Source: an uncultured Saprospiraceae bacterium
GTDB lineage: Bacteria > Bacteroidota > Bacteroidia > Chitinophagales > Saprospiraceae
Assembly: GCA_938045585.1 (NCBI GenBank)
Contig: CALIAU010000005.1
Location: forward strand, 124,001-188,000
Length of the DNA: 64,000 bases
Reading direction: 5' to 3'
The notes under the pieces were generated by a model. That model did no database searches, was not told where the DNA came from, and saw only the letters and a program-made list of their open reading frames with translations. Every line of letters begins with the position of its first letter. The stretch's first letter is position 1. Shown one piece after another: positions 19,918 through 55,183 of the stretch. A program made the translations under genes and the position numbers.

Positions 19918-19977
19918 AATATACCTTTTTAGGCATTTAAGCAGGCAGATAATTTCTGCCTGCATATGTTTATTATT

Positions 19978-37240: not shown

Positions 37241-37876
37241 CTAATGCTGCACATAAATTAAACACTTAGTCTCAAAAAAATCTTCTTTAAAATAACTACT
37301 TAAATCTGTTTTCTCATAGTAAGCGTGCTTTGAAACCTCTTTTAGTTCTTCTTTTAAATCGCCTCCTTTTAACGCGATGATTCCATTGGGTAGTGCATGT
37401 ATTGATTCCTCTTTTATCAATTTGTTAGTCCACTTTAGCAATGTTTCCGTTCTTGCCACTGCACGTGTTACTATAAAGTCAAACTTTGCTTTATGTTCTT
37501 CTACACGTGCATGGACAGTTTTTACATTTGGAATATCTGCTTCTCTGCAAATTTCATCTATAACGAACAGTTTCTTTTTCCTACTATCTAACAAAACGAA
37601 ATTTACCTCAGGGTGCAGAATGGCCAAGGGGATGCCAGGAAAGCCTCCGCCTGTTCCAAGATCAAGAATGTCTGCCCCTTTTTTAAACGAAACAAATTTT
37701 GCAATGGACAAGGAATGTAGGATGTGACGCTCTGTTATGTTGTCCACATCTTTTCTTGAAATCACATTAATTTTAGTATTCCATTCTACAATACCATCAG
37801 CAAGTTGAGCGAATTGCTGTTTTTGTTTTTCTGTAAGATTAGAGAAGTACTTACTTATGATTGTTTGATCTACCAT
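37241..37876 (-). CDS. rsmG: 16S rRNA (guanine-527-N7) methyltransferase RsmG
   Basis: A 211-residue RsmG (GidB) of usual length. SAM-binding motif 'ADILDLGTGGGFPGIPLAI', then 'VLLDSRKKKLFVIDEI', and the family segment 'FDFIVTRAVARTETLLKW'. It methylates G527 of 16S rRNA. Its start overlaps the end of the upstream GT2 gene by 7 bases. Not in the common mnmG-rsmG-parAB arrangement. Confidence 0.94.
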   Translation of the reverse strand: MVDQTIISKYFSNLTEKQKQQFAQLADGIVEWNTKINVISRKDVDNITERHILHSLSIAKFVSFKKGADILDLGTGGGFPGIPLAILHPEVNFVLLDSRKKKLFVIDEICREADIPNVKTVHARVEEHKAKFDFIVTRAVARTETLLKWTNKLIKEESIHALPNGIIALKGGDLKEELKEVSKHAYYEKTDLSSYFKEDFFETKCLIYVQH

Positions 37877-38949
37877 TTATTTCTTTGAAATATTAAAAAA
37901 GGGCTTAGTACGACATAGTACAAAAACATACAAAAATCCAGAAGTGGGTAGCTCAACTTTAAATCATGTTCCTGAAACTTATCTGCTATGAGTGCATAGA
38001 CAATCCAACTTACTCCTATTCTGATACCTAGAGCAAAAAGAGCAAAGCTATAAGCTCCATAACAAAGCAATATTATAGGCAATATGTAAGACAGAATATG
38101 ACTTGCCGAATATAGGGATAACAAAATCTTTGTCAATGCTTTATACCTAGTAGCAGTTGTAATATGTCTTGTCTTTTGTCTGAGAAATTCGTTTAGATTT
38201 GAAGCGGGAATAGATTCAGTAAACGAATCAGGTTCTATGCAAATTGTTGTATTCGTCGAATTAGCAACAGAGTCAATAAATAAATCATCATCACCAGATG
38301 CAAGGTCATTATGGGATTCAAATTTGTCTGAGTTTAGAAAGACAGATTTCTTGTATGCAAGATTACGACCTACTCCCATATATGGCATCCCTGCAATTGC
38401 ATAAGACATATATTGGATAACTGTTAAGAGTGTTTCATGCCTGATAAAAGCATTTAAAAATCCAGGCCTTTTTTTATACGCTCCATAGCCCAAAACTATG
38501 TCGGCGTTCTGGCTTGCATAACGCATGTGGCTAATCCAATCAAGAGATCTAGGTACACAATCGATATCCGTTAAAATAAGCAGATCATTTTGTGCATGTT
38601 CTATTCCTTCCTTCAAAGCCATTTTTTTACCTTTTTGGTCAATTTTAGCAGAAATTATCCTGATTTTTTCATCATTTATCTGATTCAAGGCATCCAATGT
38701 GCCGTCAGTTGAAAAATCATCAACTACAATTAATTCGTCCGATTTATTCACAGATTTTAAGTATGTAGGAATACTAGTTAAATGCTGAATTCCGTTTTTT
38801 ATGCATACGATTAGACTAACACTTTGATCAGAATCATGTGTATTACCATTCTTGTTTAGCAGAGCTAGCTTTGCAAAGGGCAAAACCCAGTAAAAAAGGT
38901 TTGTCCCGGTGGCAACAATTACGGCTATTTTTATCCAAATAAGGTCCAA
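37870..38949 (-). CDS. membrane-anchored family 2 glycosyltransferase
   Basis: A 359-residue GT2. An N-terminal helix (about 4-30), then the GT-A domain: 'VSLIVCIKNG', 'ELIVVDDFSTDGTLD' and DxD-like 'LLILTDIDCVPR'; acceptor-side 'ASGDDDLFID' and the 'RQKTRH' (QxxRW-like) site; two to three C-terminal helices. Such enzymes build lipid- or surface-linked glycans. No ATG is available: the ORF opens at TTG 38949, and a perfect -7 motif overlaps that codon, so the true start is uncertain. Confidence 0.82.
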   Translation of the reverse strand: MDLIWIKIAVIVATGTNLFYWVLPFAKLALLNKNGNTHDSDQSVSLIVCIKNGIQHLTSIPTYLKSVNKSDELIVVDDFSTDGTLDALNQINDEKIRIISAKIDQKGKKMALKEGIEHAQNDLLILTDIDCVPRSLDWISHMRYASQNADIVLGYGAYKKRPGFLNAFIRHETLLTVIQYMSYAIAGMPYMGVGRNLAYKKSVFLNSDKFESHNDLASGDDDLFIDSVANSTNTTICIEPDSFTESIPASNLNEFLRQKTRHITTATRYKALTKILLSLYSASHILSYILPIILLCYGAYSFALFALGIRIGVSWIVYALIADKFQEHDLKLSYPLLDFCMFLYYVVLSPFLIFQRNKW

Positions 38950-39090: not shown

Positions 39091-39185
39091 GGATTAACTT
39101 TATAGGAGATACTCAATTACTAAATAAGAACTAACATATTAAGAATAATTATAATATGTAACTACGAACCAAGCCTACGTTGAAA

Positions 39186-42100
39186 ATGAAAAACAGTTTA
39201 CACCTTGCACTACTCATTGGCCTATTTTTAAGTAGCTTCCAGCTTAACGCTCAAATGGACATAGATGGAGAAATCCTGTATGGAAATGAATGGATAAACT
39301 ACGATCAAGAATATTTTAAAATTACAGTAAGCGAAGATGGCATTTATAGAATCACTGGTTTTGAATTAGAGAATGCAGGTTTTGATTTAGCTAGTGTACA
39401 AGGAAGGTTCTTGCAACTCTATCATCAGGGAAAACAAATTCCAATGTTTGTTTCTGATGCTGACATAATTGAGGATGATGGTTTTATTGAGTTTTATGGA
39501 AAGAAGAACAGAGGAGAGATTGACAGACATCTATATCCTGATTGGGAAGAGAACCAATTGAATCCTAGGTACAGTAACTTTTCTGATGAGGCTAGCTACT
39601 TTCTAACCTGGGAAGAGGGTTCAGATAACCAAGATTATCGACTTTCTCAAATTGTAAATGATATCTCTGGCAATCCAACAGCCGAAACATATTATCTGCA
39701 TACAGAAGAAGTTGTTTTTTCAGATAGGCATAATAAGCCAGATTATACGACGAATAATTTACGCTTTTCTCATTTTGACAAATCAGAAGGATTTGGTTCT
39801 GATCTTGTAAGGAATAGAACAATTGCATTTCCGATAACAGATCAGGTTAACTCAAATTTTAAACCTGAATTACGTCTACGATTTGGTTCAAATGATACAG
39901 AACATAACCTCAATGTTAGCTTAAACGATTCAGAAATTTATTCTGAAGAGTTTAACGGAAATCAGCTTATACAAATTGACACAACATTCGAGTCAAGTTT
40001 GCTCACGCCTCAAACTGAATTGAATATCTTAGGAACTATAGGAAATAGTGATAGGTATGTATTAGCGTTTGCAGAAATAGAGTACTCAAGAGCGTTTGAA
40101 TTTTCTGCAGGAAAATCCATTGCTTTTAATCCTCGTCAAACAGATACTGCACCATATTTTGAGATTGATAACTTTTCATCGAATAGCGATTTAATTTTAG
40201 TCTATGATGAAGCGAGCAAAAGCAGGCTAATCGCAAATACGACAAGTAACACCATCCAATTTAGACTCCCAGTAAATGATTCAGAAGATAGAAAGATATT
40301 TGTATATGACTATGCAGAAGGGTTTAAAACTGTAGATAGGATAGAAAAAAAGAGTTATACGAATTATGGTGCTTCAAATCCAAGTTTTATAATCTTAACA
40401 AGTGACAAATTGGGTGATGATCCAATACAACAATATGCTGACTACAGAAATTCAGAAATTGGTGGAGACTTTAGGACATTGATAGTGCAGGTAGAAGAAT
40501 TGTACGATCAATATGCGTATGGAGATATAAGAAATCCGATATCTGTTAGAAATTTTATGCAGGAACGAAAATCTGATTGGCCTCAATTGGAATTTGTATT
40601 TGTTATTGGTAAAGGACTGGAGTATACTAATTACCGTACGGAAGAGCAAATTAACGATATAGATTTGCCCTTCTATGTTCCTACCTGGGGAATTCCAGGT
40701 GCAGATAATCTTATGTTTTCTGAAAAAGAAAAATCAGCACCTATTGTTCCAATTGGAAGAATTGCAGCGAGATCAGATGAAGATGTCAGCAACTATTTAG
40801 AAAAGGTATTTGCGCATGAACAAATTGCAAATACAGAATACACTTTAGAAACTAGGGAATGGACAAAAAATGTACTTCATCTTAGTGGAGGAGATACGGA
40901 GTTAGATTTGGATGAGCAAATCTTTGCAAAACTAGGAGACATGGAAGAAATCATTGAGGCGAGTACCTTTGGTGGCAATGTTATTACCTATAGAAAAACA
41001 AGTGCAGATCCGCTACAAACCGCAACTTCCACAGAAATATTACAAAACATAAGTGATGGTCAAGCTATGATAACCTTCTTTGGACATAGTGGAGCAGGCA
41101 CATTTGATTTTAGTTTAGAAGATGTAGGTGAGTGGCAAAATTATGAAAGGTATCCCATCATACTTTCTATGGGTTGCCATTCGGGCAATGTGCATGGAGA
41201 AAGTCAAAATTTGAGTTTAAGTGAAGATTTTGTTTTAACACCAGACAAGGGTGCAATAGCCTTTATTGCATCTTCATCAACAGCAACATTCTCCTCACTG
41301 TCTTCATTGGGTCCAAATTATTATGACAATTTTGGAAATGAATTCCATAACAACGCCATCGGCAAATCCATACAATCCTATCTTATCTCAAAAGAGGATA
41401 TACAAGAAAGAGGATTTGTCATGTTGAATCAACAACTTACATTTCATGGTGATCCATCTATCAAGTTATACCCGCAGGCTGGTCCAGATTATATTGTTGA
41501 TTATAACACGATCAGTAATGTCCCACAAGACATTACTATCATTGATGAAAGTTATAATGTAGAATTTGATGTGGTCAACTTAGGCAACTATGTTGACAAA
41601 GATTTGAAAATTGTACTATCCCATTACTTACCTGATGGCTCTCTTGCTAGGACTTACAACAAGGTTGTTCCTGCTCCAGGAAACCGTGTAAGAGTGAGTA
41701 TACCAATAGTGAACGAAGGCATAAATGCCTTAGGTAAAAACAGAATAGACATTGTCATAGATGCTGACAACAGTATTGCTGAAAGACCACTTCCATTTGC
41801 TGAAGAAAACAATACGCTAAGTACACTTACTGAAGATAATGGCTATTGTTATTTTGTAACTGGAAGCACTGTTATTCCTGTTTATCCTGCCGAATTCGGA
41901 ATTGTCTTAGAAGACGATATCACCTTTGTAGCATCAGGAGTAAATGCATTTAGAGACGAAACGCGATATCAACTACAACTGGATACATCTGAATTATTTG
42001 AAAATCCTTTGTTGGATGATCAAATTAGTTTGGAAGGAGGTACAGTAAAATGGAATCCAACATTTGACTATCAAGATGGCATAGTCTATTACTGGAGAGT

Positions 42101-44177
42101 CACACCAGTTATAGAAGATGAAGAAATTCAGTGGCAAAGTAGTTCATTTATACATCTACCGAATGAAGCAGAAGGCTGGAATCAAAGTCATTACTTTCAA
42201 TTTTTGAAAAACGATCTCTCAGAAATGAATGTGGAGGATCGGACGTTTACTGCGCCCTTAGAATTCGAAGAAAATGTATTAAACTTATTTGTGCCTGATG
42301 GGGACGAGATTGTACCTAGATATAGCCGTGCAAATACAAACTTAGCCTTTGCAAAACTTTGGGAGATTCCTCAGACTGGAATATGTGTAGTCATGCGGGA
42401 GCCTGTAAATTTCACTTTTCAAGTTAATACTGTTCCAGGACTCCATGGTTCTTGGTCACAAAATTCTACAAAAAGGATTTTCTTTTTCCGAACGGATGAG
42501 CAACAAAGCAGAATCGATTTAGTTAATTTCTTGTATGATATTATTCCTGATGGGTATCATTTCTTCTTGAACACCTTACATCATAATCTGGATGGTGACC
42601 TGCATACAGATGAATGGGAAGGCGATGCTGCCCTGAACAGTGGCAGAAGTATTTTTAGCTTTTTAGAATCACAGGGAGCAGAACTTACTCAAGACTTAAA
42701 AGGAAGGAATACACATTATGCAACTTTCATAACTAAGGGTGAAAAAATGCATGATGAGGTCTTGGGCAACTCGCTAGAAGAAGAAGTGAATATTTCTGCA
42801 ATAATAGCTCGAAAAGCTTTCAACGGAAAAATGGTTTCTAAGACAATTGGGCCTAGCTCGGCCTGGTTTACATTTGATAGCGGACTAAGTAACATTGAAG
42901 ATCAGGATGAAACAACTATTGACATCGTTGGTGTAAGAGCCAATGGCGATAAGACAACACTATACAGCGATGTACAACAAGGCTTACTTGATTTAAGTGA
43001 GATTCCGGCTGCTGTGTATCCATATTTAGAACTTTCTTATAGTGGAACTGATAGTCTCAATAGAACATTGCCAAGCTTAGACTATTGGAGAGTTTACCAT
43101 AAACCTGCACCGGAAGCTATTTATGAAAGTGCAGATATTTTAGAGTTTGAAAGTGATGCATTAGAGCAGGGCGAGGAAATTAGTTTCAGAGCAAAAATCT
43201 CTAATATAATTGAGAATGATATGGATAGTCTGTTAGTACGATACTCCATAACAAACTCATTGAATGAAACAGTGGAAACATTTGTAAGAAACGAACCTCT
43301 ATTAGGCTTAGAGAATAATACAATTGAGTTTAGTAGGGAAACTATTGATTTAACTCCTGGTAGATATGTATTTATTTCAGAGTTAAACCCATTAGAGGAT
43401 CAGATAGAGCAGCGTCATTTTAATAACTATGCGATAACACCGTTTAACATCAAAAGAGACAGGTTAAATCCTTTACTTGATGTAACCTTCAATGAGCAGC
43501 ATATTAATAATGGAGATGTCATTTCGGACAAGCCCGTGATACGCATTACTCTCTTAGATGAAAACCCATATCTCTTGCTCGATGATATCAATGATTTCCA
43601 AGTAGTGATAACACATCCAGATTCTACAAGAGAAAATTTAAACTTTGATACAGATGATCGTATCAGCTTTACTCCTGGAACGACAGATCTTAATCAAGCA
43701 GAAATAATATTCTTACCTGAGTTTTTACAAGAAGGTACATATGAGTTTTTTGCACAAGCAAAGGACAAGAGTGGTAATTTTTCTGGAGATGTTGAATACC
43801 GCGTCAACTTCCAAATTCTCTTTGAAAATAAAATCACTGATGTAGGAATATGTCCTAATCCATTACAAGCAATCACTGATGAGGCATTCTTTAAATTTTC
43901 GTTACAGGGTAAAATTCTTCCAAGCCCTTTCGAAATCAGAATTTACTCAATTGATGGTCAACTTGTTGAACTCATTCAGACCGACAGGTTAGGTAATGTG
44001 CTCATTGAAGGTGTAAACCTTGTTCCATGGGATGGAACAAGTGCTTCTGGTGCACCCCTATCATCCGGTACCTATTTTTACAAATTTGGATTTATACCTG
44101 ATCATTACAGAAACAACCTCCCTGCGTTATATTTCAAAGATGCCCATGGCTCTTTTGTAATTATAAACCAGGACTAA
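39186..44177 (+). CDS. C25 (gingipain-like) protein, PorU2-type putative T9SS sortase (paralogue 1)
   Basis: A 1663-residue secreted protein with signal peptide (to about residue 24). The C25 caspase-like domain covers about 400-750: 'FVFVIGKGLEYTNYRTEEQ', catalytic His634 in 'ITFFGHSGAG', and catalytic Cys664 in 'ILSMGCHSGNVHG', 30 residues later. CARDB-like Ig modules follow (about 770-1500), then a FlgD-like tail ('VPWDGTSASGAPLSSGTYFY'). Size and layout match the putative sortase PorU2 rather than classical PorU. Such proteases cut T9SS C-terminal domains and attach cargo to lipopolysaccharide. ATG 39186 is preferred over TTG 39180. Followed by a paralogue 11 bases downstream. Confidence 0.82.
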   Translation: MKNSLHLALLIGLFLSSFQLNAQMDIDGEILYGNEWINYDQEYFKITVSEDGIYRITGFELENAGFDLASVQGRFLQLYHQGKQIPMFVSDADIIEDDGFIEFYGKKNRGEIDRHLYPDWEENQLNPRYSNFSDEASYFLTWEEGSDNQDYRLSQIVNDISGNPTAETYYLHTEEVVFSDRHNKPDYTTNNLRFSHFDKSEGFGSDLVRNRTIAFPITDQVNSNFKPELRLRFGSNDTEHNLNVSLNDSEIYSEEFNGNQLIQIDTTFESSLLTPQTELNILGTIGNSDRYVLAFAEIEYSRAFEFSAGKSIAFNPRQTDTAPYFEIDNFSSNSDLILVYDEASKSRLIANTTSNTIQFRLPVNDSEDRKIFVYDYAEGFKTVDRIEKKSYTNYGASNPSFIILTSDKLGDDPIQQYADYRNSEIGGDFRTLIVQVEELYDQYAYGDIRNPISVRNFMQERKSDWPQLEFVFVIGKGLEYTNYRTEEQINDIDLPFYVPTWGIPGADNLMFSEKEKSAPIVPIGRIAARSDEDVSNYLEKVFAHEQIANTEYTLETREWTKNVLHLSGGDTELDLDEQIFAKLGDMEEIIEASTFGGNVITYRKTSADPLQTATSTEILQNISDGQAMITFFGHSGAGTFDFSLEDVGEWQNYERYPIILSMGCHSGNVHGESQNLSLSEDFVLTPDKGAIAFIASSSTATFSSLSSLGPNYYDNFGNEFHNNAIGKSIQSYLISKEDIQERGFVMLNQQLTFHGDPSIKLYPQAGPDYIVDYNTISNVPQDITIIDESYNVEFDVVNLGNYVDKDLKIVLSHYLPDGSLARTYNKVVPAPGNRVRVSIPIVNEGINALGKNRIDIVIDADNSIAERPLPFAEENNTLSTLTEDNGYCYFVTGSTVIPVYPAEFGIVLEDDITFVASGVNAFRDETRYQLQLDTSELFENPLLDDQISLEGGTVKWNPTFDYQDGIVYYWRVTPVIEDEEIQWQSSSFIHLPNEAEGWNQSHYFQFLKNDLSEMNVEDRTFTAPLEFEENVLNLFVPDGDEIVPRYSRANTNLAFAKLWEIPQTGICVVMREPVNFTFQVNTVPGLHGSWSQNSTKRIFFFRTDEQQSRIDLVNFLYDIIPDGYHFFLNTLHHNLDGDLHTDEWEGDAALNSGRSIFSFLESQGAELTQDLKGRNTHYATFITKGEKMHDEVLGNSLEEEVNISAIIARKAFNGKMVSKTIGPSSAWFTFDSGLSNIEDQDETTIDIVGVRANGDKTTLYSDVQQGLLDLSEIPAAVYPYLELSYSGTDSLNRTLPSLDYWRVYHKPAPEAIYESADILEFESDALEQGEEISFRAKISNIIENDMDSLLVRYSITNSLNETVETFVRNEPLLGLENNTIEFSRETIDLTPGRYVFISELNPLEDQIEQRHFNNYAITPFNIKRDRLNPLLDVTFNEQHINNGDVISDKPVIRITLLDENPYLLLDDINDFQVVITHPDSTRENLNFDTDDRISFTPGTTDLNQAEIIFLPEFLQEGTYEFFAQAKDKSGNFSGDVEYRVNFQILFENKITDVGICPNPLQAITDEAFFKFSLQGKILPSPFEIRIYSIDGQLVELIQTDRLGNVLIEGVNLVPWDGTSASGAPLSSGTYFYKFGFIPDHYRNNLPALYFKDAHGSFVIINQD

Positions 44178-44188
44178 AAAAGTAAACT

Positions 44189-47100
44189 ATGAAATTGACA
44201 AAGCAATTAATTATACTTTTCATTTTATCCTGCTCGTTTACTCAAATCTTCTCTCAAATGGAGATAAACGGCCAATCAATTTTTGGTAATGAGTGGATAG
44301 ATTACGAACGAGATTATTACAAAATTTCTATTTCGGAAGACGGCGTATATAGAATATACAGTTCCGATCTTGAAGAAAATGGAATAAACTTATCCCAATT
44401 CCGCGGAGAGGAATTACAACTCATGCATTGGGGACAAGAAGTACCTATATATGTCTCTACAGCTGGCAATTTTGGTTCCAATGATTTTATTGAATTTATT
44501 GGTCGTAAAAACACGGGCGAATTGGATAAGCAATTATTCTTAGAATGGGAGGAAGCGCAACTAAATTTAGAATACAGCCAGTTTACAGAAAGTTCTGCAT
44601 ATTTTTTAAGTTGGAAAAATGGATCAACTAACAATAATAGAATTACGGAGGAGGAAAATACTTTTAACAATTCTATCCCTGTAGAAGATTACCATATTCA
44701 TACTGAAACTTTAGTATTTAGCGATGTATTCACAAAACCAAGTTATACGGAGAGTGTTAGGTTTTCGAATTTTGACACAGCGGAAGGTTTTGGTACAGGG
44801 TATCAGAGAACGCATAATATAAGTTTCGATTTAACTGACCCTGCATCAACGAATGCTTTTATTCCTGAACTTAATATCCGAATGGGTACAAATGCTACTA
44901 CTCATATTCTGGAGTTAAGCCTTAATGACCAAGAAATTCATACTACTAATTTTTCTGGTTACAAAGTAATTGATCACACTGCCGAGCTTGATCCAAGCCA
45001 ATTATTAGCTAGCAACACTGTACAAGTGCATGGAGCAGTAGATGCGAATGACAGATACACGGTAGCGCATTCAAGTTTAAAGTATGCTAGACGATTAAAT
45101 TTTGGAAGTTCCAATTATGTAGAATTTCAATCAAGAAATAATTCATCTGCGTTTAGTTATTCCATAAACACAATTGACAATAGTTCAAATGAATTTGTGG
45201 TATTAGACGAATCAGAAGGAATTAGATATTCTGTAGAAACTTCCAATGATAAAATAAACTTTACGCTACCTGCAGGTTCTACCTCACGTACTATTCACAT
45301 GTTTGACCCAAGCGATGGATATAAGATTGTAGACAGAATAGAAGCACGCAGGTTCATTGACTATACTACAGAAAATCCAGAATATCTTATACTAACAAGT
45401 GAAAAACTCAACCCAACTTCTGGCTTAAATAAAGTACAAGAATATGCAGATTATAGATCATCTGAAATTGGTGGTGCTTATAACTCGTATGTTATAAATG
45501 TGGAACAACTCTATGATCAATTTGCTTTTGGAGTTATAAGAAATCCATTATCCGTTAGAAATTTTTCACATTTTATAAGGAGCCATTGGGAAAACTTAGA
45601 ATTTGTTTTCATCGTAGGAAAGGGTGTTGAATATGCGTCGTACAGAACGGAAGAACAAATAAATGACCCTACTACCCCGTCCTTTTATGTGCCAACATGG
45701 GGATTCCCAGGATCGGACAATCTGTTACTTGCTGACAAAGGTTTTTCTGCTCCTTCTGTTTCTGTGGGAAGAATTGCAGCGCGCGATGCTGTAGATATTT
45801 CAAATTATTTAAACAAGGTTATTGATCATGACCTTGTGTTTACAACTGGACAGACGCAAGAGGAAAAAAGTTGGACAAAAGAAATTATTCATTTAAGTGG
45901 AGGTGATCCTACAATCCAAGAAAGTTTGTATCAACATTTACTAGATATGGAGGATATAATTGAATCTAGTGCGTTTGGAGCTGAAGTCACTACCTATAGA
46001 AAATCAAGTGCAGATCCATTGCAGTCTGCAACCTCTTCAGAGATACTTAGTAATATAAATAGAGGTAAAGCCATTATTACATTTTTTGGTCATAGTGGTG
46101 TGGGTACCTTTGATTTTAGCTTAGAGGATGTCGCAGAATGGAAGAATGAAGGAAAATTACCTATGATAATTTCCTTAGGATGTCACTCTGGTAATATTCA
46201 TGGTACTTCAAATGCTTTAGGTCTGAGTGAAAGTTTTATTTTAGAACCTGAGAAAGGTGCTATTCTTTTCTTAGCATCTTCAAGTTCTGCATTTATAAGT
46301 CCACAAGCAGTTGCTGGAAAATCTTATTACGATTCATTCGGTAACGCACATTTTGGTAACCCTGTAGGTAATTCTATTTTCGACTACTTAAGTAACTTTA
46401 ATAATGCACAAAGTCTTTCTGTAAAATCATTAAATCAGCAACTCACTTTTCATGGTGATCCAGCAGTGGAGTTTTATACAAATCAATCACCAGATTATAT
46501 TACAGATAATACTTCAATAAAAATAGCAACTGAAAATCTTACTATAACGGATCCAGAAATTCCGGTTAAGTTTGATATTTTGAACCTAGGAAGTGCAATT
46601 AGTGATGAGATGGAGGTGCGTGTGTCTCATTATCTTCCAGACAACACGTTGTTTAGAGAATATACCGAGAGAATTGGTAATATACGCTACAAAAGCTCTA
46701 TCGAGTTTACTCTTGAAAACCCGGGTCTAGCAGCTGCTGGAAAAAATAGAATAGATATCGTTCTTGATTCTCAGAATGAAATTACAGAATTACCGAATCC
46801 AGATGCTGAGGAAAATAATACCTTAAGCAACACTGTTTCTGATGATGGTTTCTGCTTTTTTATCAATAGTAATATTGTTAAACCAAAGTTCCCAAATGAT
46901 TTTGGCATTATAAACACATCAGATATCAAGTTCATTGCTACAGGTAACAATGCATTTAATATCGAAACAGAATATATTCTTGAGTTAGATACGACTGATG
47001 TATTCAATTCTCCCCTTCTAAGCGAAACTATAAGCCAAGAAAACGGTACAATTGAATGGAATCCTAGTTTTGCCTATCAAGATGGGACGGTGTATTATTG

Positions 47101-49159
47101 GAGAATATCACCGAACAATGTTGCTGGTACAAATTTATGGCAACACAGTTCATTCATCTATTTAGAAAATGAACCAGAAGGATGGAATCAAAGTCATTTC
47201 TACCAGTATCTATATGATGATTTATCCGAGGCAAGGTTTGAAGGACGTACACTCAGATTTGGTCAAGAATTAGAGGAGACAACGTTAAATCTTTTTGTAC
47301 CGGATGGATCTACTGTAAGACCTAGGTACTGGAGAGCAAATACAACTTTAGGATTTGCAAAAATTTGGGAAATTACAGAAACAGGAATCTGTGTACTTAT
47401 ACGAGGAGAGGAAGATCTCGCCTTCGTTGAAAACGCACCACCTGGGGAACATGGTTCGTGGTCAAAAAGTGGTACAAAACGTGTATTCTTTTTTGCGACT
47501 GATAGCGCAGAAAAGCGGATTGCTCTAGTCAACTTCTTGGAAGATGTTGTAACTGATGGTCAGCATGTTTTCTTGAACACTATTCATAATGATGAAAATG
47601 GCAACCTATTCGGTGAAGAATGGGCTCAGGATTCTCTCAGTAATGATGGTAAAAACATATTTAACGTCTTGGAGTCTTATGGAGCTAATGATATTCGCAA
47701 ATTAGAAACAAACAATTCACACTATGCTATCTTTTTCACGAAAGGTGGAGCAGTGTCTGACGAAGCATTTAGTGTGAATCTGAGTGAAGAAATAAATCCT
47801 TCTGCTACACTTCCAAAGACAAAGGAAGATGGAGTTATTCAATCAACTCTTATAGGGCCTAGTGTTGCATGGTCAACCTTACAAACGCGGATTGAGGGCA
47901 TAGAAGACCATGATTCTATTTCTTTGAATGTGTATGGTATTGATTATGACAATAACGAAACTCTACTGTATGAAAATATCAGTACGGGTCTTTTTGATCT
48001 TAGTGAGACTTCTGCCAGCTCATACCCATTTTTAAAATTGAGGTACTTTGCTGCTGATGCCACTAACTATACATTCCCAGAATTAGAATATTGGAGAGTG
48101 AATCATAGACCTGTCCCTGAGGTAATTTATAACACAAATGAATTACTTAGCTTTAATAGCGATGAATTATTCATTGGCGAGCAATTACGTTTTGATGCTA
48201 GTGTTAAAAACATTACTAGCTCAGACATGGATAGCTTATTAGTTAAATACAGTATTATCGATCAGGAAAACAATATAGTAGATACTTATAATCGAAATAG
48301 CCCTTTAACGGCGAACGATGCATATAGTATCCAGTTTGAAAATTCTACAGATAACTTAGCACCTGGTGATTATCAGTTTATAGCTGAATTAAATCCTGAT
48401 GAAGACCAAGCAGAGCAAGAACATTTTGATAATTTCTTTGTAAAATCATTCTTAGTAATTGGAGATCAAATCAATCCTATCTTAGATGTAACCTTTGATA
48501 AGAAACATATTCTTAATGGTCAAACTGTTTCTAGTAGTCCTCTTATTGAGCTAATACTAACAGATCCAGAAGCAACACTGCTCCTGGATGATTTATCAGA
48601 TTTTCAAATTGCTCTTTTCCATCCAGATGGTTCACAGGAAAACATTGATGTATTGAATGATACAAGAATAACTTTTACTCCAGGAACTATAAGCAATAAT
48701 CAAGCTATCGTTCTTTTCTCTCCAACGTTTGAACCAGGAGAGTATACCTTCTTAGCGCAGGCAAAAGACAGATCTGGTAATTTCGCTGGAGGCTTAGAAT
48801 ATCGAGTAGATTTCGTGGTAAGTGGAACAAATGCTATTAGCGGTATAACTGTATTTCCAAACCCAAGTAGTTCGGTAATAAATCTGATGATAGATATAGA
48901 AGGAGAATCCGCACCCGAATCTGTTGACATTTATATACACAATATGCTAGGTCAAAAACTTATCCAATTAAACACATTGGATGCAGGAATAAACCTTACT
49001 GTAGGTAGTAATATTATTCCTATTTCGGAGTATATATCTAGAGGGCTTTTACCAGCAGGAATTTACAATTACAGTCTAGAGTTATCAGAATCTGCTCAGG
49101 GTAATTTTCCTGAAAATTACACAGAGAGTTCAGTGGGTAAATTTTTGATTGTAGATTAA
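44189..49159 (+). CDS. C25 (gingipain-like) protein, PorU2-type putative T9SS sortase (paralogue 2)
   Basis: A 1656-residue paralogue of the preceding gene over its whole length. Opening 'QMEINGQSIFGNEWIDYER' parallels 'QMDIDGEILYGNEWINYDQ'. His635 ('ITFFGHSGVG') and Cys665 ('ISLGCHSGNIHG') keep the catalytic spacing of 30. The Ig-like middle has matching blocks ('EPEGWNQSHFYQY' with 'EAEGWNQSHYFQF'). The C-terminus differs: here it is nearer a T9SS type A tail ('ITVFPNPSSSVINL', 'LPAGIYNYSLEL'), whereas paralogue 1 has the FlgD-like 'PWDGTSASG'. Start 11 bases after the first gene; a strong terminator ends the pair. Confidence 0.82.
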   Translation: MKLTKQLIILFILSCSFTQIFSQMEINGQSIFGNEWIDYERDYYKISISEDGVYRIYSSDLEENGINLSQFRGEELQLMHWGQEVPIYVSTAGNFGSNDFIEFIGRKNTGELDKQLFLEWEEAQLNLEYSQFTESSAYFLSWKNGSTNNNRITEEENTFNNSIPVEDYHIHTETLVFSDVFTKPSYTESVRFSNFDTAEGFGTGYQRTHNISFDLTDPASTNAFIPELNIRMGTNATTHILELSLNDQEIHTTNFSGYKVIDHTAELDPSQLLASNTVQVHGAVDANDRYTVAHSSLKYARRLNFGSSNYVEFQSRNNSSAFSYSINTIDNSSNEFVVLDESEGIRYSVETSNDKINFTLPAGSTSRTIHMFDPSDGYKIVDRIEARRFIDYTTENPEYLILTSEKLNPTSGLNKVQEYADYRSSEIGGAYNSYVINVEQLYDQFAFGVIRNPLSVRNFSHFIRSHWENLEFVFIVGKGVEYASYRTEEQINDPTTPSFYVPTWGFPGSDNLLLADKGFSAPSVSVGRIAARDAVDISNYLNKVIDHDLVFTTGQTQEEKSWTKEIIHLSGGDPTIQESLYQHLLDMEDIIESSAFGAEVTTYRKSSADPLQSATSSEILSNINRGKAIITFFGHSGVGTFDFSLEDVAEWKNEGKLPMIISLGCHSGNIHGTSNALGLSESFILEPEKGAILFLASSSSAFISPQAVAGKSYYDSFGNAHFGNPVGNSIFDYLSNFNNAQSLSVKSLNQQLTFHGDPAVEFYTNQSPDYITDNTSIKIATENLTITDPEIPVKFDILNLGSAISDEMEVRVSHYLPDNTLFREYTERIGNIRYKSSIEFTLENPGLAAAGKNRIDIVLDSQNEITELPNPDAEENNTLSNTVSDDGFCFFINSNIVKPKFPNDFGIINTSDIKFIATGNNAFNIETEYILELDTTDVFNSPLLSETISQENGTIEWNPSFAYQDGTVYYWRISPNNVAGTNLWQHSSFIYLENEPEGWNQSHFYQYLYDDLSEARFEGRTLRFGQELEETTLNLFVPDGSTVRPRYWRANTTLGFAKIWEITETGICVLIRGEEDLAFVENAPPGEHGSWSKSGTKRVFFFATDSAEKRIALVNFLEDVVTDGQHVFLNTIHNDENGNLFGEEWAQDSLSNDGKNIFNVLESYGANDIRKLETNNSHYAIFFTKGGAVSDEAFSVNLSEEINPSATLPKTKEDGVIQSTLIGPSVAWSTLQTRIEGIEDHDSISLNVYGIDYDNNETLLYENISTGLFDLSETSASSYPFLKLRYFAADATNYTFPELEYWRVNHRPVPEVIYNTNELLSFNSDELFIGEQLRFDASVKNITSSDMDSLLVKYSIIDQENNIVDTYNRNSPLTANDAYSIQFENSTDNLAPGDYQFIAELNPDEDQAEQEHFDNFFVKSFLVIGDQINPILDVTFDKKHILNGQTVSSSPLIELILTDPEATLLLDDLSDFQIALFHPDGSQENIDVLNDTRITFTPGTISNNQAIVLFSPTFEPGEYTFLAQAKDRSGNFAGGLEYRVDFVVSGTNAISGITVFPNPSSSVINLMIDIEGESAPESVDIYIHNMLGQKLIQLNTLDAGINLTVGSNIIPISEYISRGLLPAGIYNYSLELSESAQGNFPENYTESSVGKFLIVD

Positions 49160-49168
49160 ACAATATGA

Positions 49169-49210
49169 CCACCATTCCAAGGAGTAGTGTGCTACTTCTT
49201 GGAATGGTGG
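49169..49210 (+). terminator. strong hairpin terminator after the C25 pair
   Basis: A 19-bp stem with one G-U pair (49169-49187 with 49192-49210) and TGTG loop; outer part CCACCATTCCAAG with CTTGGAATGGTGG. Starts 9 bases past the stop. Confidence 0.8.
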
Positions 49211-49279
49211 GAATGTTAAGCCATATAACTTAAACAAATATGGCTCCCCCCTATCTTTAAGATTGCAAACTACTTTCCT

Positions 49280-49302: not shown

Positions 49303-50415
49303 ATTAAAATCAAGGTTCTACATATTGTTGCATCATACCCTAGCTCTACTCAAATCTGGTTAGAGAATTATTTAAATGCAAATCAAAACTATGAGATATT
49401 TTTGTTTGCTGAAGAGCTTAACAAGAATGCCGTCATAAATAAGAGCATTAGCCTTGTTAACAGTCCCCAAAAAAAACCTAAAAACAGGTTATCCAGCAAA
49501 TTGTACTATATAAAAACTCTGCGTTTCCTTAGGTCCTATATCAAAGAAAATAATATTTCACACGTACATGTTCATTTTGCAAATTTAGGATACCTATATC
49601 TAGGACTTAAGAGCAGGGACCTTCGATACGCTGTTTCCTTCTATGGTTATGATTATGAATCACTCAGCTATGAGAATAATAAATGGACAAAGGCCTATAA
49701 ATCACTATTTTCAGAAGCAGACTTATTTTTCTGTGAAGGAGAACATGGTGCCCAGAGACTTATACATCTAGGTTGTGATAAAGAAAAAGTAAGGGTGCAA
49801 AAATTAGGAGTTAGAAAAGAACACATCCAATTCTTAAAAAGAAAGAAAAAAAAGAATTCTTTAAAGCTTATACAGATTGCATCGTTCGCTGAGAAGAAAG
49901 GACAAATTCATTCGGTCAATGCTATTAAAAACATTTGTAAAGAGTGCCCAAATATTTCACTCAGTTTTTATGGAAATATTAGAGATAGTGCATATTATAG
50001 AACGGTTATTGATCTGATCGCACAGCATGGTTTAGAAGAACATATTCTTGGACATGATTATTTAGATTATACAAAGTTACATGAGACCTTAGCAAATTTT
50101 GATGTATTCATTCATCCGAGTTGTTATGCTCATAATCGTGATTGCGAAGGTGGCGCACCGACTATTCTCCTGGATGCCCAAGCAACAGGAATGCCCATCA
50201 TTAGCACTATGCATTGTGATATTCCAAATACTGTATTGCATGGCAAGACTGGTTTACTCTCTGAAGAGAAAAACTTAGACCAACTCTCAGAACACATAAA
50301 ACAGTTTTATAAAATGGATGAAGAAGAATACAATGCTTTTTCATACTCCGCCACAGCTTATATCGAAGAGAACTATGACATCCAAAAAAACTTATTAAGT
50401 CTTCGTTATGAATAA
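49303..50415 (+). CDS. GT-B (family 4-like) glycosyltransferase with unusual start
   Basis: The reading frame stays open back to a TGA at 49297-49299 and encodes a proper GT-B beginning, 'IKIKVLHIVASYPSSTQIWL', ahead of 'NYEIFLFAEELNK'. So the TTG at 49402 is too far in. No ATG, GTG or TTG precedes that strand in frame; ATT 49303 is the only near-start codon, and ATG 49296 is one base out of frame. The C-terminal half has 'LKLIQIASFAEKKGQIHS' and the nucleotide-sugar site 'GAPTILLDAQATGMPIIST', as in GT4. It overlaps the sulfotransferase by 8 bases. Expected to add a sugar to a surface polysaccharide. Confidence 0.75.
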   Translation: MKIKVLHIVASYPSSTQIWLENYLNANQNYEIFLFAEELNKNAVINKSISLVNSPQKKPKNRLSSKLYYIKTLRFLRSYIKENNISHVHVHFANLGYLYLGLKSRDLRYAVSFYGYDYESLSYENNKWTKAYKSLFSEADLFFCEGEHGAQRLIHLGCDKEKVRVQKLGVRKEHIQFLKRKKKKNSLKLIQIASFAEKKGQIHSVNAIKNICKECPNISLSFYGNIRDSAYYRTVIDLIAQHGLEEHILGHDYLDYTKLHETLANFDVFIHPSCYAHNRDCEGGAPTILLDAQATGMPIISTMHCDIPNTVLHGKTGLLSEEKNLDQLSEHIKQFYKMDEEEYNAFSYSATAYIEENYDIQKNLLSLRYE

Positions 50416-51241
50416 GCAGATTGAAAAAAGGATAAGTTTTATTGTTATTGGTGCAATGAAATCGGGTACAAGCTACTTAGCAAATAATCTTGAACAACAT
50501 CCTGATATCTCTTTTTGCCGTGAGAAGGAACCCCACTATTTCTCAAAAGAAAAGATAAACGCATCTACTTTAGAAAAATACCATCAGTTATTTGATTTCT
50601 CAAAACTACAGCAAGGAGAGGCAAGCACCACCTATACATTTTATCCTGAATACAATAAGGACGTTGCAAAAGATATCTATACCTATAACCCAAATATTAA
50701 GCTAATTTATATTGTTAGAGCTCCATTGGATAGAATAAGCTCGGACTATATGCACCTTTACTCTAGAAAGTACACACACTTAGAGTTTAATGAGGCCATA
50801 CGCAAAGTGCCAGGTATAATAGATCGCACGAAATATAATAGTCACATCCAGAGATACTTACAATATTTTAATCGAGATCAGCTCTTAGTTCTAAAGTATG
50901 AAGAGTTAAACAGCGAACCAGAATTTACATTTAATCAAATTACTAGTTTTTTAGGCATTACGCCTTTTGACGCTGTAGATACCCAACGTGTAAATGCAAG
51001 TCTCAATACTAAAAAGACGAGCCATCAGTTTAACAAAATTCCCATGCCACTACGAAAGATCACAAGTTTGCTCTTTCCTACATTTATAAAAGAGACTATT
51101 AGGAATACCTTCTTTATGGGAAGGCAATTGCATGCAAGACCGATCCTGACTAAAGAGTCCAAAGAACATATAGAAAACGCTTTAGCAGGCGAGATGGAAG
51201 CATTATATCAGTTTGAAAATGGAATTGATTATCGATTTTAA
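50408..51241 (+). CDS. sulfotransferase (type 1)
   Basis: A 277-residue PAPS-dependent sulfotransferase. The 5'-phosphosulfate loop is 'VIGAMKSGTSYLANNLEQHP' near the N-terminus; the 3'-phosphate site 'LIYIVRAPLDRISSDYMHLY' lies near residue 100, with the conserved Arg and Ser. Early 'REKEPHYFS' is typical of carbohydrate (heparan/NodH-like) sulfotransferases. Overlaps the upstream GT by 8 bases, so both act on the same glycan. Substrate sugar unknown. Confidence 0.88.
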   Translation: MNKQIEKRISFIVIGAMKSGTSYLANNLEQHPDISFCREKEPHYFSKEKINASTLEKYHQLFDFSKLQQGEASTTYTFYPEYNKDVAKDIYTYNPNIKLIYIVRAPLDRISSDYMHLYSRKYTHLEFNEAIRKVPGIIDRTKYNSHIQRYLQYFNRDQLLVLKYEELNSEPEFTFNQITSFLGITPFDAVDTQRVNASLNTKKTSHQFNKIPMPLRKITSLLFPTFIKETIRNTFFMGRQLHARPILTKESKEHIENALAGEMEALYQFENGIDYRF

Positions 51242-51243
51242 TC

Positions 51244-52176
51244 CTATGGCAATTCCTTAAAAGAATCTTTATACTCCTCTATTTCAAAATACTCTAAAAC
51301 TTTGCGCATTGCCTGTATTTGTTCTAAAGTAAAATGACTTTGCCATAACGAAAGTTGCTCCTTCCCTTTCAAGGGACTGTTTTTAGTTGCTGTAGAACTT
51401 GCCCTACTGAACTCTATCCGAGATAAGTCATACTTCAAGTTCCACGTTGCCAAGACTTTCTCTAGTGCACTTTTGGGATCCATTACTAAATCCTCGTAGT
51501 ATAAAGTCAACCATTTTTTGTCTCTGTCTTTATGTTCAAGTAAAAGCTTATTTGTCATACACCAGATCGCTGTTAAACCTTCGTGCGGTGTTTTTAAGGA
51601 TCGAATATAAGTGGAATACTGAGTATAATAGGTACTACGGTCATTTAAACTATCAAGGAATTTGTCTGGATTAAACCCCCAGCCCATTTTAATCTGAGAA
51701 GATACTACACTGAATGGATGCCTAAGTAAATGTATGGGAGCTCTTTCAAAGGTAAATTTCGACACGAGCCAGGGCAACAAGGCATTTGCTCTAACAAATT
51801 TAAAAACACCTGCTTGTGCCTCCTTGATTTTTGACCTATCAGTTTCACTCGTAATCCAATGATTTAGAATTTGGCCCTTCAAAAGTTTATTGAATAGTTT
51901 TTCCGCCTCTTCCCATTCATCATCAGCAGCAATATACGGACGCCAACTGAATCCTAAGCTTTTGAATGCTTGCACTCTCTTCCTATGAAAGGGCTCCCAA
52001 ATTTTAGGATAACCGGTAATCTCAGATAAAATTTCCGACACCCATGTACTACCTCCTCTGGGGTCAGAAAAGATAATAATGTTCTTACTGACTTCAAAAT
52101 CCATCTTACGTGCCAGCCACTGCATTTGCACATCTATTATCTTTTGCTCAATTCTCCAAAGTCCTGGTATCCGCAT
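51244..52176 (-). CDS. sulfotransferase (type 2)
   Basis: A 310-residue sulfotransferase-domain protein. PAPS loop 'IIIFSDPRGGSTWVSEIL' near residue 33; 3'-phosphate site 'PIHLLRHPFSVVSSQIKMGW' near 165; then 'LTLYYEDLVMDPKSALEKVL'. It differs in loop sequence and length from the sulfotransferases at 50408 and 61405, so it probably has a distinct acceptor. One base after the GT4 gene, which precedes it in the same unit. Confidence 0.82.
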   Translation of the reverse strand: MRIPGLWRIEQKIIDVQMQWLARKMDFEVSKNIIIFSDPRGGSTWVSEILSEITGYPKIWEPFHRKRVQAFKSLGFSWRPYIAADDEWEEAEKLFNKLLKGQILNHWITSETDRSKIKEAQAGVFKFVRANALLPWLVSKFTFERAPIHLLRHPFSVVSSQIKMGWGFNPDKFLDSLNDRSTYYTQYSTYIRSLKTPHEGLTAIWCMTNKLLLEHKDRDKKWLTLYYEDLVMDPKSALEKVLATWNLKYDLSRIEFSRASSTATKNSPLKGKEQLSLWQSHFTLEQIQAMRKVLEYFEIEEYKDSFKELP

Positions 52177-52177
52177 A

Positions 52178-53338
52178 TTATCTTGATTGCAATTTTTTCT
52201 GCGAATGTAAAACTTCAGTATAACTCGTTAAGTATTGCTGAGCAATGACTTGGTTACTGTATGTTCGAATAGCTCTCTCTCTTATGCTTTCCTTCTTATA
52301 TTGATTCAAATTTTGAGCCGTATAGCTAAGAGCCTTATAAAATGCGCTCTTATCCCGTGATGGCACGAGTATACCTAAGGAGTCATCATCCACAATCTCT
52401 GAGATACCACCCACATCTGATGACACAATGCTTAAGCCACAAGATTGTGCTTCAATCAAAACACAGGGTAAATTTTCTGTTAAACTAAATAAAACAAACA
52501 CATCATGTTCTCGCATTACTTTTGCTACTCCAAGTTCGTCCAAACCAGATAAAATTTGGGTATGCGTTAGATTAAATTTTTCAATAAGTGTTTCTGCCGC
52601 TTCTTTCCCCGTCTCTGCAACAATGGTTAATTGGGAATTTGGAAATTCCGTTTGAAAATTTTTAAAGACTTCTAGTAATTCTTCAATGTTTTTTTGTTCA
52701 GAGAGATTTGAAATATGTAGGTAACGTACTCCAAAACTTGGTTCATTTCGAATTGAAAATATTTCCGTGTCTACCACATTGGGCACCACCTTAAAAACAC
52801 TTTGCGCAGAAATCAATTTTAAATTCTTTTCTAGATCTTTAGAGACAGGAAACACAGCAGAACTATTTTTAAGCGCACTCTTTACAAATGGCTTTTTATA
52901 AAATGGAAGATCAAATGTACTAGTGGGTAGGTAGATAGTAGAATGCTCTGTTATCACATAAGGAATGCCATATTTCTTTTTTATCCGTCGTGCAACTATA
53001 CCTGCTGGTAAAGTAACATTTGCGTGCACAATGTCGATTTTTTGTCTGTTCTTTAGGTAGTTAAACCCAAACATAAATGCCTTAAATCTGGCTCGCGCTT
53101 GTAGTCTTCCCCGCTTACTTGGAAATAGTACTTTTACCTGAAGCACTTTTTCTCGCGTATCTTCTACTATCTTTGTTTCAGTGAGGCTGTGTACTTCGAT
53201 AGACAAAACGCTTACTTTATTGTTTGTCTGCGCTATTGCACGTGCGTGCTTGTAAATAAAAATGCCGTTGAATGGTTTTTTCTCTGAGGGGTACCAACTT
53301 GCTAAAAATAAGACACTAATATTTTCTATTTTGTTCAT
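52178..53338 (-). CDS. family 4 glycosyltransferase
   Basis: A 386-residue GT-B enzyme. N-terminal acceptor domain: 'VLFLASWYPSEKKPFNGIFI', 'DIVHANVTLPAGIVARRI'. C-terminal donor domain: 'RYLHISNLSEQKNIEELLEV' and the E-x7-E-type site 'LTENLPCVLIEAQSCGLSIV'. Cytosolic-side retaining transferase that uses a nucleotide sugar. First gene before the type 2 sulfotransferase (gap of 1 base); divergent from the GT2 at 53384. Confidence 0.9.
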   Translation of the reverse strand: MNKIENISVLFLASWYPSEKKPFNGIFIYKHARAIAQTNNKVSVLSIEVHSLTETKIVEDTREKVLQVKVLFPSKRGRLQARARFKAFMFGFNYLKNRQKIDIVHANVTLPAGIVARRIKKKYGIPYVITEHSTIYLPTSTFDLPFYKKPFVKSALKNSSAVFPVSKDLEKNLKLISAQSVFKVVPNVVDTEIFSIRNEPSFGVRYLHISNLSEQKNIEELLEVFKNFQTEFPNSQLTIVAETGKEAAETLIEKFNLTHTQILSGLDELGVAKVMREHDVFVLFSLTENLPCVLIEAQSCGLSIVSSDVGGISEIVDDDSLGILVPSRDKSAFYKALSYTAQNLNQYKKESIRERAIRTYSNQVIAQQYLTSYTEVLHSQKKLQSR

Positions 53339-53363
53339 GTAGTATAATACTATTACACAATAT

Positions 53364-53371
53364 CAAAAATA
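53364..53371 (-). promoter_or_regulatory. -7 promoter element (TATTTTTG) of the GT4-sulfotransferase unit
   Basis: Exact TAnnTTTG on the minus strand, 25 bases before ATG 53338, within the 45-base divergent gap. Confidence 0.4.
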
Positions 53372-53383
53372 CATTTAATTCTC

Positions 53384-54292
53384 TTGGTATCCGTATCTAC
53401 AATCATACCTTTTTACAATAACGCAGACACACTAAAGTCGTGCATACAATCAGCGATTGAGCAGGAGATTCAGGGCTCAGAAATATTACTAATTGATAAT
53501 AATTCGACAGATAATTCTCTACACATATCAAATGAATTTGCGCAAAATAATTCACAGGTATATTTATACCAATGCACAGAGCAAGGTTCAGCCTATGCTA
53601 GGAATTTGGGACTTGAACATGCTAAGGGTGAGTACATACAGTTCTTAGACGCGGACGATTTACTAAAAAAAGATAAAATAAAAATTCAATTAGAAGAGAA
53701 CAAGAACAATGCTGACATCATTGTCTCTCCGTACACCGAACATTTTAAAGGAAAAAAAATAGCCTACAACTTTAACACAGATATTTGGGCAGCTCTGATA
53801 GAGGGAAAACTTGGCATTACTAGTTCCAATTTATTCAAGACATCATCAATAAGAGACATTAAGGGTTGGGACACAAACATCCCAAATCACCAAGACTATG
53901 AACTTATGTTTCGCTTACTTAAAAACGGCGGTCTAGTGCAGTTTGTTAACTCTTCGCTCACAATTAAACGCTCAAGAGAATATCATTCTATTTCTTCGGA
54001 AACCGAGCAATCTTATCCAAAGGTAGGCATAGAGCTAAGGGAGAACATCAGGCAATATTTACAAGAGAAAAATATTCTGAATGAAAAGTATGAAAAACTA
54101 GCACTCCGCTATTTTTATGATAAGATCACCTGGCTATATAGGTTTGATCCAAATGAAGCGGTACGCCTTTATCATCATTATTTTTCAGAAAAGAAAAATC
54201 GATCTGTAATCCCTCTTAAGAATAGAATAATCGAGTCAGTTTTTGGTTTTTCTACTTCGCGCAAAATAAAACATAGTTTATTTTCCAAGTAG
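53384..54292 (+). CDS. family 2 glycosyltransferase
   Basis: A 302-residue GT-A enzyme: 'VSVSTIIPFYNNADTLKSCI', 'EILLIDNNSTDNSL' and the metal-binding 'EYIQFLDADDLLKKDKI'. No membrane helices, so it acts as a soluble or peripheral transferase. The frame upstream to a TAA at 53345 has no ATG; TTG 53384 directly precedes the first strand and is taken as start. Its 3' end overlaps the convergent GT2 by 15 bases. Confidence 0.88.
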   Translation: MVSVSTIIPFYNNADTLKSCIQSAIEQEIQGSEILLIDNNSTDNSLHISNEFAQNNSQVYLYQCTEQGSAYARNLGLEHAKGEYIQFLDADDLLKKDKIKIQLEENKNNADIIVSPYTEHFKGKKIAYNFNTDIWAALIEGKLGITSSNLFKTSSIRDIKGWDTNIPNHQDYELMFRLLKNGGLVQFVNSSLTIKRSREYHSISSETEQSYPKVGIELRENIRQYLQEKNILNEKYEKLALRYFYDKITWLYRFDPNEAVRLYHHYFSEKKNRSVIPLKNRIIESVFGFSTSRKIKHSLFSK

Positions 54293-55183
54293 TTTTTTAA
54301 TTCCTGCCTTAATCCATTTAACTCGTAAATCTAAGTTTGACGGGGCCTTATAATCAGGGTAGTCTCTTTTTATTTGGTCTAAAATCGTAGGTAAATACTC
54401 CCAATCAACCTGAGCAGTCCCTTTTAAAAGTTCATCATATTTACTATACACAATCGCATTCAATTCGGAATCAGAATACGGTAAATACTCCTGTAGGCTC
54501 ACAATTACGCGACAGATATTATCTCTCACTTGTTCATACATCTGTTCCTTGTATTTATCATACTTTGTTCCTGTAATTCTTTCTTTATGTCTGTGGACTG
54601 TACAAGAAATAGTATCTATACATTTCAAACTATTTTGTGCGATTAGCGGAAGAATGTAGGGTACATCTTCATACACTAAATCATCTTCATCAAAACGTCT
54701 AGATTTGGCAAGCTCATTTGGATATACAAAAGGAATAGGTGAATAGCTCTCTTCAATGTATTTCTTTACAAATATATCTTCTGCCCCGGGTGATACTGTT
54801 CTAATAAAAGCCCCATTTAGCTCTCTCATTTCATAAGCAAAAACAAGAATTTTATCTTTTTCGGCATGTTTAAAAATTGTATCAAAAAAGTGTGGTGCAT
54901 AGAGATCATCATCATCCAAATAGCAAAGGTAGTTTCCTTTTGCACGTTCAATTCCAAAATTTCTTGCGGAAGCGAGTCCTCCATTGGTCTTGTAGTAATA
55001 TTGAATACGCTCATCATCAAAGTCTTCTACTATCTGCTTTGACTTAGGTAATGAACCGTCATCAACTACAATTGCTTCCCAATCATCGAAAGACTGCTGC
55101 AGAATACTATTTACTGCCTTACTAAGCAAATCGCTACGATTATAACTTGGAATTATTACTGATATGAATGGATTCTTCTTCAA
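54278..55183 (-). CDS. family 2 glycosyltransferase
   Basis: A 301-residue GT-A enzyme: 'PFISVIIPSYNRSDLLSKAV', 'WEAIVVDDGSLPKSK', and 'NYLCYLDDDDLYAPHF' with the DxD-type metal site. Start TTG 55183 lies in a TTGA overlap with the asnB stop, a sign of translational coupling. It is the second gene after asnB, and its end overlaps the opposite-strand GT2. Confidence 0.88.
   Translation of the reverse strand: MKKNPFISVIIPSYNRSDLLSKAVNSILQQSFDDWEAIVVDDGSLPKSKQIVEDFDDERIQYYYKTNGGLASARNFGIERAKGNYLCYLDDDDLYAPHFFDTIFKHAEKDKILVFAYEMRELNGAFIRTVSPGAEDIFVKKYIEESYSPIPFVYPNELAKSRRFDEDDLVYEDVPYILPLIAQNSLKCIDTISCTVHRHKERITGTKYDKYKEQMYEQVRDNICRVIVSLQEYLPYSDSELNAIVYSKYDELLKGTAQVDWEYLPTILDQIKRDYPDYKAPSNLDLRVKWIKAGIKKLLGK

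Follow-up and report, generated by a model that had tools for sequence, protein, structure and literature searches.

The tandem PorU2 genes

The window, by which we mean the whole stretch of 64,000 nucleotides that was analysed, comes from the genome of an uncultured Saprospiraceae bacterium (4.3 Mb, 98% complete). It carries two large intact open reading frames on the forward strand, namely copy A (39186–44177; 1663 aa, ATG at 39186, with an alternative in-frame TTG start at 39180 in the list of open reading frames) and copy B (44189–49159; 1656 aa, ATG at 44189). The two genes are separated by 11 intergenic bases, and their products are 46% identical over the full length. A sequence-only reading of this DNA had described a tandem pair of C25 proteins of 1.66-k residues lying 11 bases apart, and this description was borne out. 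Directly 3′ of copy B lies a strong hairpin (49162–49217; −37 kcal/mol, z −7.7) with no clear T run, a possible terminator or repeat element; judging from its position after copy B, the pair is probably transcribed as a single unit.

Both products belong to the PorU2 family, as they match NCBIfam NF052324 (putative type IX secretion system sortase PorU2) with 643.7 bits (copy A) and 662.7 bits (copy B), far in excess of its curated threshold (450 bits). The match spans residues about 11–869 in both copies. The PorU model NF033707, whose cut-off is 420 bits, gave only 157 bits for copy A and did not list copy B. PorU2 accompanies PorU in most of the 60 family- and order-level genomes sampled, usually with a size of ~1650–1700 residues, and the size and the catalytic dyad of the pair are ordinary for PorU2. 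The pair differs from other PorU2 in being a tandem pair rather than a single copy, in its drifted C-terminal domains (CTDs), and in the lack of PorV2 in the genome; the domain order is the same. A classical PorU, whose presence elsewhere the sequence-only reading had left to be checked, was found on contig C2 of the same genome (NF033707, 1159.5 bits; NF052324, 211 bits), where its neighbours are PorV, a PorP/SprF-family gene, and GldJ.

Copy A consists of a signal peptide, a PorU-like N-terminal region, the C25 peptidase domain, a series of beta-sandwich domains together with a single ILEI-like alpha/beta domain, and the CTD; the architecture of copy B is the same. The C25 domain (PF01364) lies at 40386–41468 in copy A (E = 2.7e-52) and at 45383–46471 in copy B (E = 7.7e-50). 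An AlphaFold2 model of residues 1–880 of copy A, including this domain, had a pLDDT of 90.5. The best Foldseek match of the N-terminal half was PorU (PDB 6za2; E = 3.7e-31), with the gingipains behind it, and the C25 model superposed on RgpB with a VIA-align Z of 37.5 (rmsd 2.7 over 325 residues). The C-terminal half gave mainly common beta-sandwich matches by Foldseek and VIA. The region with the ILEI/FAM3-like domain (42363–42830 in copy A) was assigned through homologous segments: 7 of 19 matched PF15711 (ILEI; best E = 9.8e-5), copy A's own segment being unmatched, and a PDB profile search with the ILEI-like segment returned nothing relevant.

Duplication history and selection

Copies A and B are each other's closest paralogues. 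The only other sampled genome of the genus (the sister genome, G001) carries both copies, and in our tree copy A of one species is sister to copy A of the other, and likewise for copy B, with 100% support for each pair and nested within the family tree. Each copy is thus orthologous to its counterpart in the sister genome, which places the duplication before the divergence of the two species and after the split from the other sampled genera. Absence of the pair from close relatives with the same T9SS cargo had been named as a point that would speak against the sequence-only reading. The outcome is mixed, as the pair is present in the one other genome of the genus, but most genera of the family have a single PorU2. 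Tandem or extra PorU2 copies arose independently in G018, G004, G041, and G022. Three extra copies in G004 (L044, L054, and L058) end in a dockerin-like tail (DGDxNxxDKIxW) rather than a CTD, and one PorU2 copy of that genome retains a canonical CTD.

Between the two species, copy A shares 67% identity with its orthologue over the whole protein and 73% in the C25 domain; for copy B the values are 63% and 77%. The dN/dS of the C25 domain between species is ~0.07 for each copy, with dS above 2 and near saturation. This constraint indicates that both enzymes are maintained, and the dN/dS comparison revealed purifying selection on both domains; between A and B themselves, dS is saturated and dN/dS is unusable as a single number. 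The sequence-only reading also held that the copies had diverged throughout while keeping the catalytic core, which agrees with their identities of 58% in the C25 domain, 39% in the N-terminal part, and 25% in the CTD. It is very improbable that copy B is heading for loss of function and that the pair is a neutral duplication. The CTD of copy B is indeed its fastest-evolving part (37% identity between species), but its C25 domain is better kept between species than that of copy A, its dyad is intact, and it has no stop codons.

The catalytic dyad and the missing arginine

The predicted catalytic pairs, His634/Cys664 in copy A (codons at 41085–41087 and 41175–41177) and His635/Cys665 in copy B (46091–46093 and 46181–46183), proved exact. 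The dyad is kept in all 107 aligned PorU2 sequences, and both copies qualify as C25 peptidases in this respect. A conserved arginine located 32 residues past the catalytic cysteine was proposed to set PorU apart from the gingipains (Gorasia et al., 2015; PMC4560394). We examined the position of this residue, Arg722 of Porphyromonas gingivalis, which was proposed as a sortase-type residue of PorU (PMC4560394), in a joint alignment. It is arginine in 42/42 PorU but in 0/107 PorU2, where it is mostly glycine or serine (serine in copies A and B), and PorU2 has a gingipain-like "IAS" strand in place of the PorU arginine. Other residues are invariant in PorU2 yet lacking from PorU (e.g., Lys561, His565, and Lys604).

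Given this difference, the dyad by itself is no proof of a sortase. The role of the arginine is itself an alignment-based proposal, so that its absence lowers, without excluding, the prospect of sortase activity in PorU2; judging from these alignments, we regard PorU-type sortase activity of PorU2 as rather doubtful. Since copies A and B lack the arginine, transpeptidation onto a glycan in the manner of PorU would be no likelier than hydrolysis or a chemistry other than that of PorU. The description of the pair as sortase-like enzymes is thereby weakened.

PorU2 resembles PorU (NF033707; PDB 6za2) in its N-terminal region, C25 fold, Cys/His dyad, and the kind of CTD, whereas PorU is about 500 residues shorter, has Arg722, and is encoded beside porV. 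The gingipains RgpB and Kgp share with PorU2 the C25 fold, the dyad, and the lack of arginine at this position, but they are secreted proteases with removable CTDs and have no PorU-like conserved CTD.

The C-terminal domains

The CTDs of copy A (43836–44174) and copy B (48839–49156) had been described as tails of different types. They are in fact the same homologous domain, although only that of copy A scores against a profile of the PorU2-type CTD (45 bits; copy B was undetected). Among the 92 other PorU2 sequences, the CTD is the most conserved domain (mean identity 52.6%, vs. 38.5% for C25), which makes it unlike a disposable export tag. Both CTDs of the window lie away from this norm, with mean identities to the family of 33% (A) and 25% (B), copy B being the farthest; between the two species, the CTD of copy A is 81% identical and that of copy B 37–38% identical. 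Their conservation scores are 0.52 (A) and 0.36 (B), compared with about 0.8–1.0 for the canonical CTD. The canonical CTD is a class that we observed in this analysis, outside the NCBIfam definition, in 64 of 65 PorV2-bearing rows with extra copies set aside. Against TIGR04183, the general cargo tail, copies A and B scored 15 and 19.5 bits, both below the threshold of 23 bits for type A cargo of the type IX secretion system (T9SS), copy B being slightly nearer to this tail.

The CTDs of PorU and PorZ stay on the protein and are not removed (PMC11285876); the anchors of these two proteins are PorV and PorQ, respectively (PMC5562754). We considered whether the canonical PorU2 CTD might mark a cargo class, and rejected this idea, since a profile of this CTD, searched in 15 genomes, found PorU2, PorU, and one protein of ~1400 residues beside a third barrel (described below), not the bulk of the cargo; in one genome it also gave weak partial matches. 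The genome carrying the window has at least 150 candidates for type A CTD cargo. The reverse strand at 31923–34322 encodes an M14 carboxypeptidase in which a T9SS sorting domain of type A is clear, a possible ordinary cargo near the pair.

The PorU of this genome shows the same drift, with a normal score for the C25 domain (0.83) and a low one for the CTD (0.43). We therefore rejected a fast-evolving genome as the whole cause of CTD drift; the C25 domain of PorU2 likewise shows no such effect.

Covariation of the C-terminal domains with PorV2

In several order-level relatives, the gene immediately preceding PorU2 is that of PorV2 (NCBIfam NF052325, putative type IX sorting system protein PorV2). 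PorV2 is absent from the assemblies of the genome carrying the window and of its sister: a family PorV2 profile scored 539–547 bits in three relatives, only 20.8 bits (on PorQ) here, and nothing in the sister. Most of the genomes are incomplete metagenome-assembled genomes, and the absence of PorV2 means absence from assemblies throughout.

We ranked PorU2 sequences by CTD conservation first and searched for PorV2 afterwards. Among the newly searched genomes, PorV2 was absent for 9/9 full-length PorU2 with a drifted CTD and present for 37/39 with a canonical CTD, two more loci (contig-end or extra copies) having been set aside. Combined with the earlier genomes, 64 canonical and one drifted CTD were found with PorV2, and two canonical and 15 drifted CTDs without it. 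With the CTD left out of the tree, independent contrasts related CTD conservation to PorV2 (t = 8.6, p = 5e-13), while the C25 domain showed no effect (p = 0.41) and other PorU2 regions correlated more weakly (p = 0.004–0.04); these p-values are approximate, as a presence/absence trait was handled as continuous. A strict test of independent pairs, weak because too few of them are supported, gave four for, none against, and three ties (p = 0.125).

The CTD of PorU follows the same pattern. Its strength is related to PorV2 (p = 4e-5) and to the PorU2 CTD (r = 0.90), with 114–154 bits in PorV2-bearing genomes and 30–96 bits in the drifted lineages, which suggests that a constraint on the CTDs of both enzymes disappears together with PorV2. 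This joint drift of the PorU2 and PorU CTDs where PorV2 is absent, across independent lineages, is the new element of our analysis.

There are exceptions. Two genomes (those of L107 and L087) have no PorV2, yet both PorU and PorU2 have normal CTDs (about 150 bits for PorU), which may reflect assembly gaps or recent losses of PorV2. The PorU CTD is also normal in G028 and G049, which have no PorV2 in the assembly, and G003 has PorV2 yet a partly drifted CTD. In seven genomes (G008, G010, G014, G015, G021, G029, and G036), PorV2 was present and PorU2 was undetected, which fits a role of PorV2 that includes PorU. PorV2 is tandemly duplicated in G004, G006, G012, G034, G386, G396, G398, and G400.

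A third barrel of the PorV/PorQ family is encoded in the window at 18877–19965 on the reverse strand. We rejected it as a drifted PorV2, as it has 97.9 bits to NF033709 and only 18 bits to NF052325, is closer to PorQ, and has clear orthologues in relatives that carry PorV2 as well. Orthologues occur in most relatives searched. It is adjoined by a gene for a 1362-aa protein (19978–24066, reverse strand) whose C-terminus matches the PorZ and PorU2-type CTDs, and the two (18877–24066) look like a further pair of a barrel and a CTD-docked protein.

The polysaccharide neighbourhood

A divergently transcribed GT2 glycosyltransferase gene upstream of copy A (37870–38949, reverse strand) is kept beside PorU2 in several related genera. 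On the other side, the polysaccharide locus noted by the sequence-only reading is present (49402–56958), with glycosyltransferases, two sulfotransferases, and an asparagine-synthase-like protein. This setting is not peculiar to the window. Polysaccharide genes account for 35/266 open reading frames in the flanks of PorU2, 3/217 in those of PorU, and 1/258 in those of PorV2 (p = 6e-7 for PorU2 vs. PorU), although the gene families were seeded from the window and the surroundings of PorU2, and a single ancestral location is common to neighbouring genera. The ILEI fold has animal members that bind GlcNAc (PMC9802357). The polysaccharide neighbourhood and the weak ILEI-like domain hint at a glycan.

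Interpretation

What reaction copies A and B carry out can be read in two further ways. They may be active sortases parallel to PorU, each cutting the CTD off its own class of cargo and joining that cargo to a particular glycan, perhaps the adjacent sulfated polysaccharide. The intact dyad, the PorU-like N-terminal region and overall fold, the polysaccharide-rich flanks, the weak ILEI-like domain, and the type A cargo candidates of the genome (at least 150) are all consistent with this, but the proposed sortase arginine is found in no PorU2, and the enrichment in glycan genes is subject to the seeding and the shared location mentioned above; we consider this account unlikely. The missing arginine and the "IAS" strand in its place fit a reading of PorU2 as a gingipain-like surface protease that would hydrolyse surface or extracellular proteins and use its CTD only for export and anchoring, and by VIA-align the catalytic domain is indeed nearest to the gingipains. 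Over a longer stretch, however, PorU is the best match by both Foldseek and profile. PorU2 occurs alongside PorU in most genomes and adjoins PorV2 in relatives, which suggests a component of the secretion machinery more than a secreted protease, and a CTD that is more conserved than the catalytic domain would be unusual for a cleavable export tag. Such a protease is possible, if distinctly short of an even chance.

As for the drift of the CTDs, a changed translocon (Sov/SprA) or PorV might drive it, the loss of PorV2 being a side effect and not the cause. The tight correlation between the PorU and PorU2 CTDs could also follow if the translocon or PorV had come to recognise all component CTDs differently, and the conservation of PorV is slightly low in G000 and G005. 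It is likewise low in some PorV2-bearing relatives, and the PorV of G003, G018, and G033, which have PorV2, has diverged to roughly the same degree as in G000, while the PorV of G013, which lacks PorV2, is ordinary. We find this explanation doubtful. A more far-reaching proposal is that the CTDs of PorU and PorU2 have in PorV2 a dock or shuttle of their own at the outer membrane, apart from the PorV shuttle of ordinary cargo, and that its loss left the CTDs unconstrained and PorU2 free to duplicate and specialise, as in the window; judging from the covariation, we put this proposal slightly short of an even chance.

The reading that we prefer, and hold to be about evenly balanced between right and wrong, is that the T9SS exports PorU2 to the surface, where this C25 enzyme docks by its CTD, usually to PorV2, and that the genus of the window lost the dock and duplicated PorU2. 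Copies A and B would be paralogous C25 cysteine enzymes that work at the cell surface within the attachment module of type IX secretion, exported by Sec through the signal peptide and then by the T9SS through the CTD. PorU2 would be held at the outer membrane by its own retained CTD acting as a docking domain, as in P. gingivalis PorU, which docks to PorV. Most relatives show extreme constraint on this CTD, and the PorV2 barrel most likely recognises it there; PorV2 probably recognises the PorU CTD as well. In this genus, PorV2 appears to have been lost, the CTDs of PorU and PorU2 have drifted, and porU2 has been duplicated. The CTD of copy A has reached a new conserved form, so that this copy probably still has a fixed substitute partner to dock to; the CTD of copy B evolves freely and may be an export tag only. 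At the surface, the substrates on which both copies act with the Cys/His dyad would be cargo of the T9SS or other surface proteins.

PorU2 and PorV2 are NCBIfam names. In the open-access papers searched, we found no experimental study of either protein and no use of the name PorU2, and the sole match to PorV2 in a T9SS paper was a superscript artefact. The covariation of PorV2 with the CTDs offers a first testable idea of which proteins bind each other within this second attachment module, while the lack of the arginine directly prompts the question of whether PorU2 acts as a sortase at all. Should PorU2 indeed link proteins to glycans of the surface, there would be two ways in which Saprospiraceae and their relatives build their cell surface.
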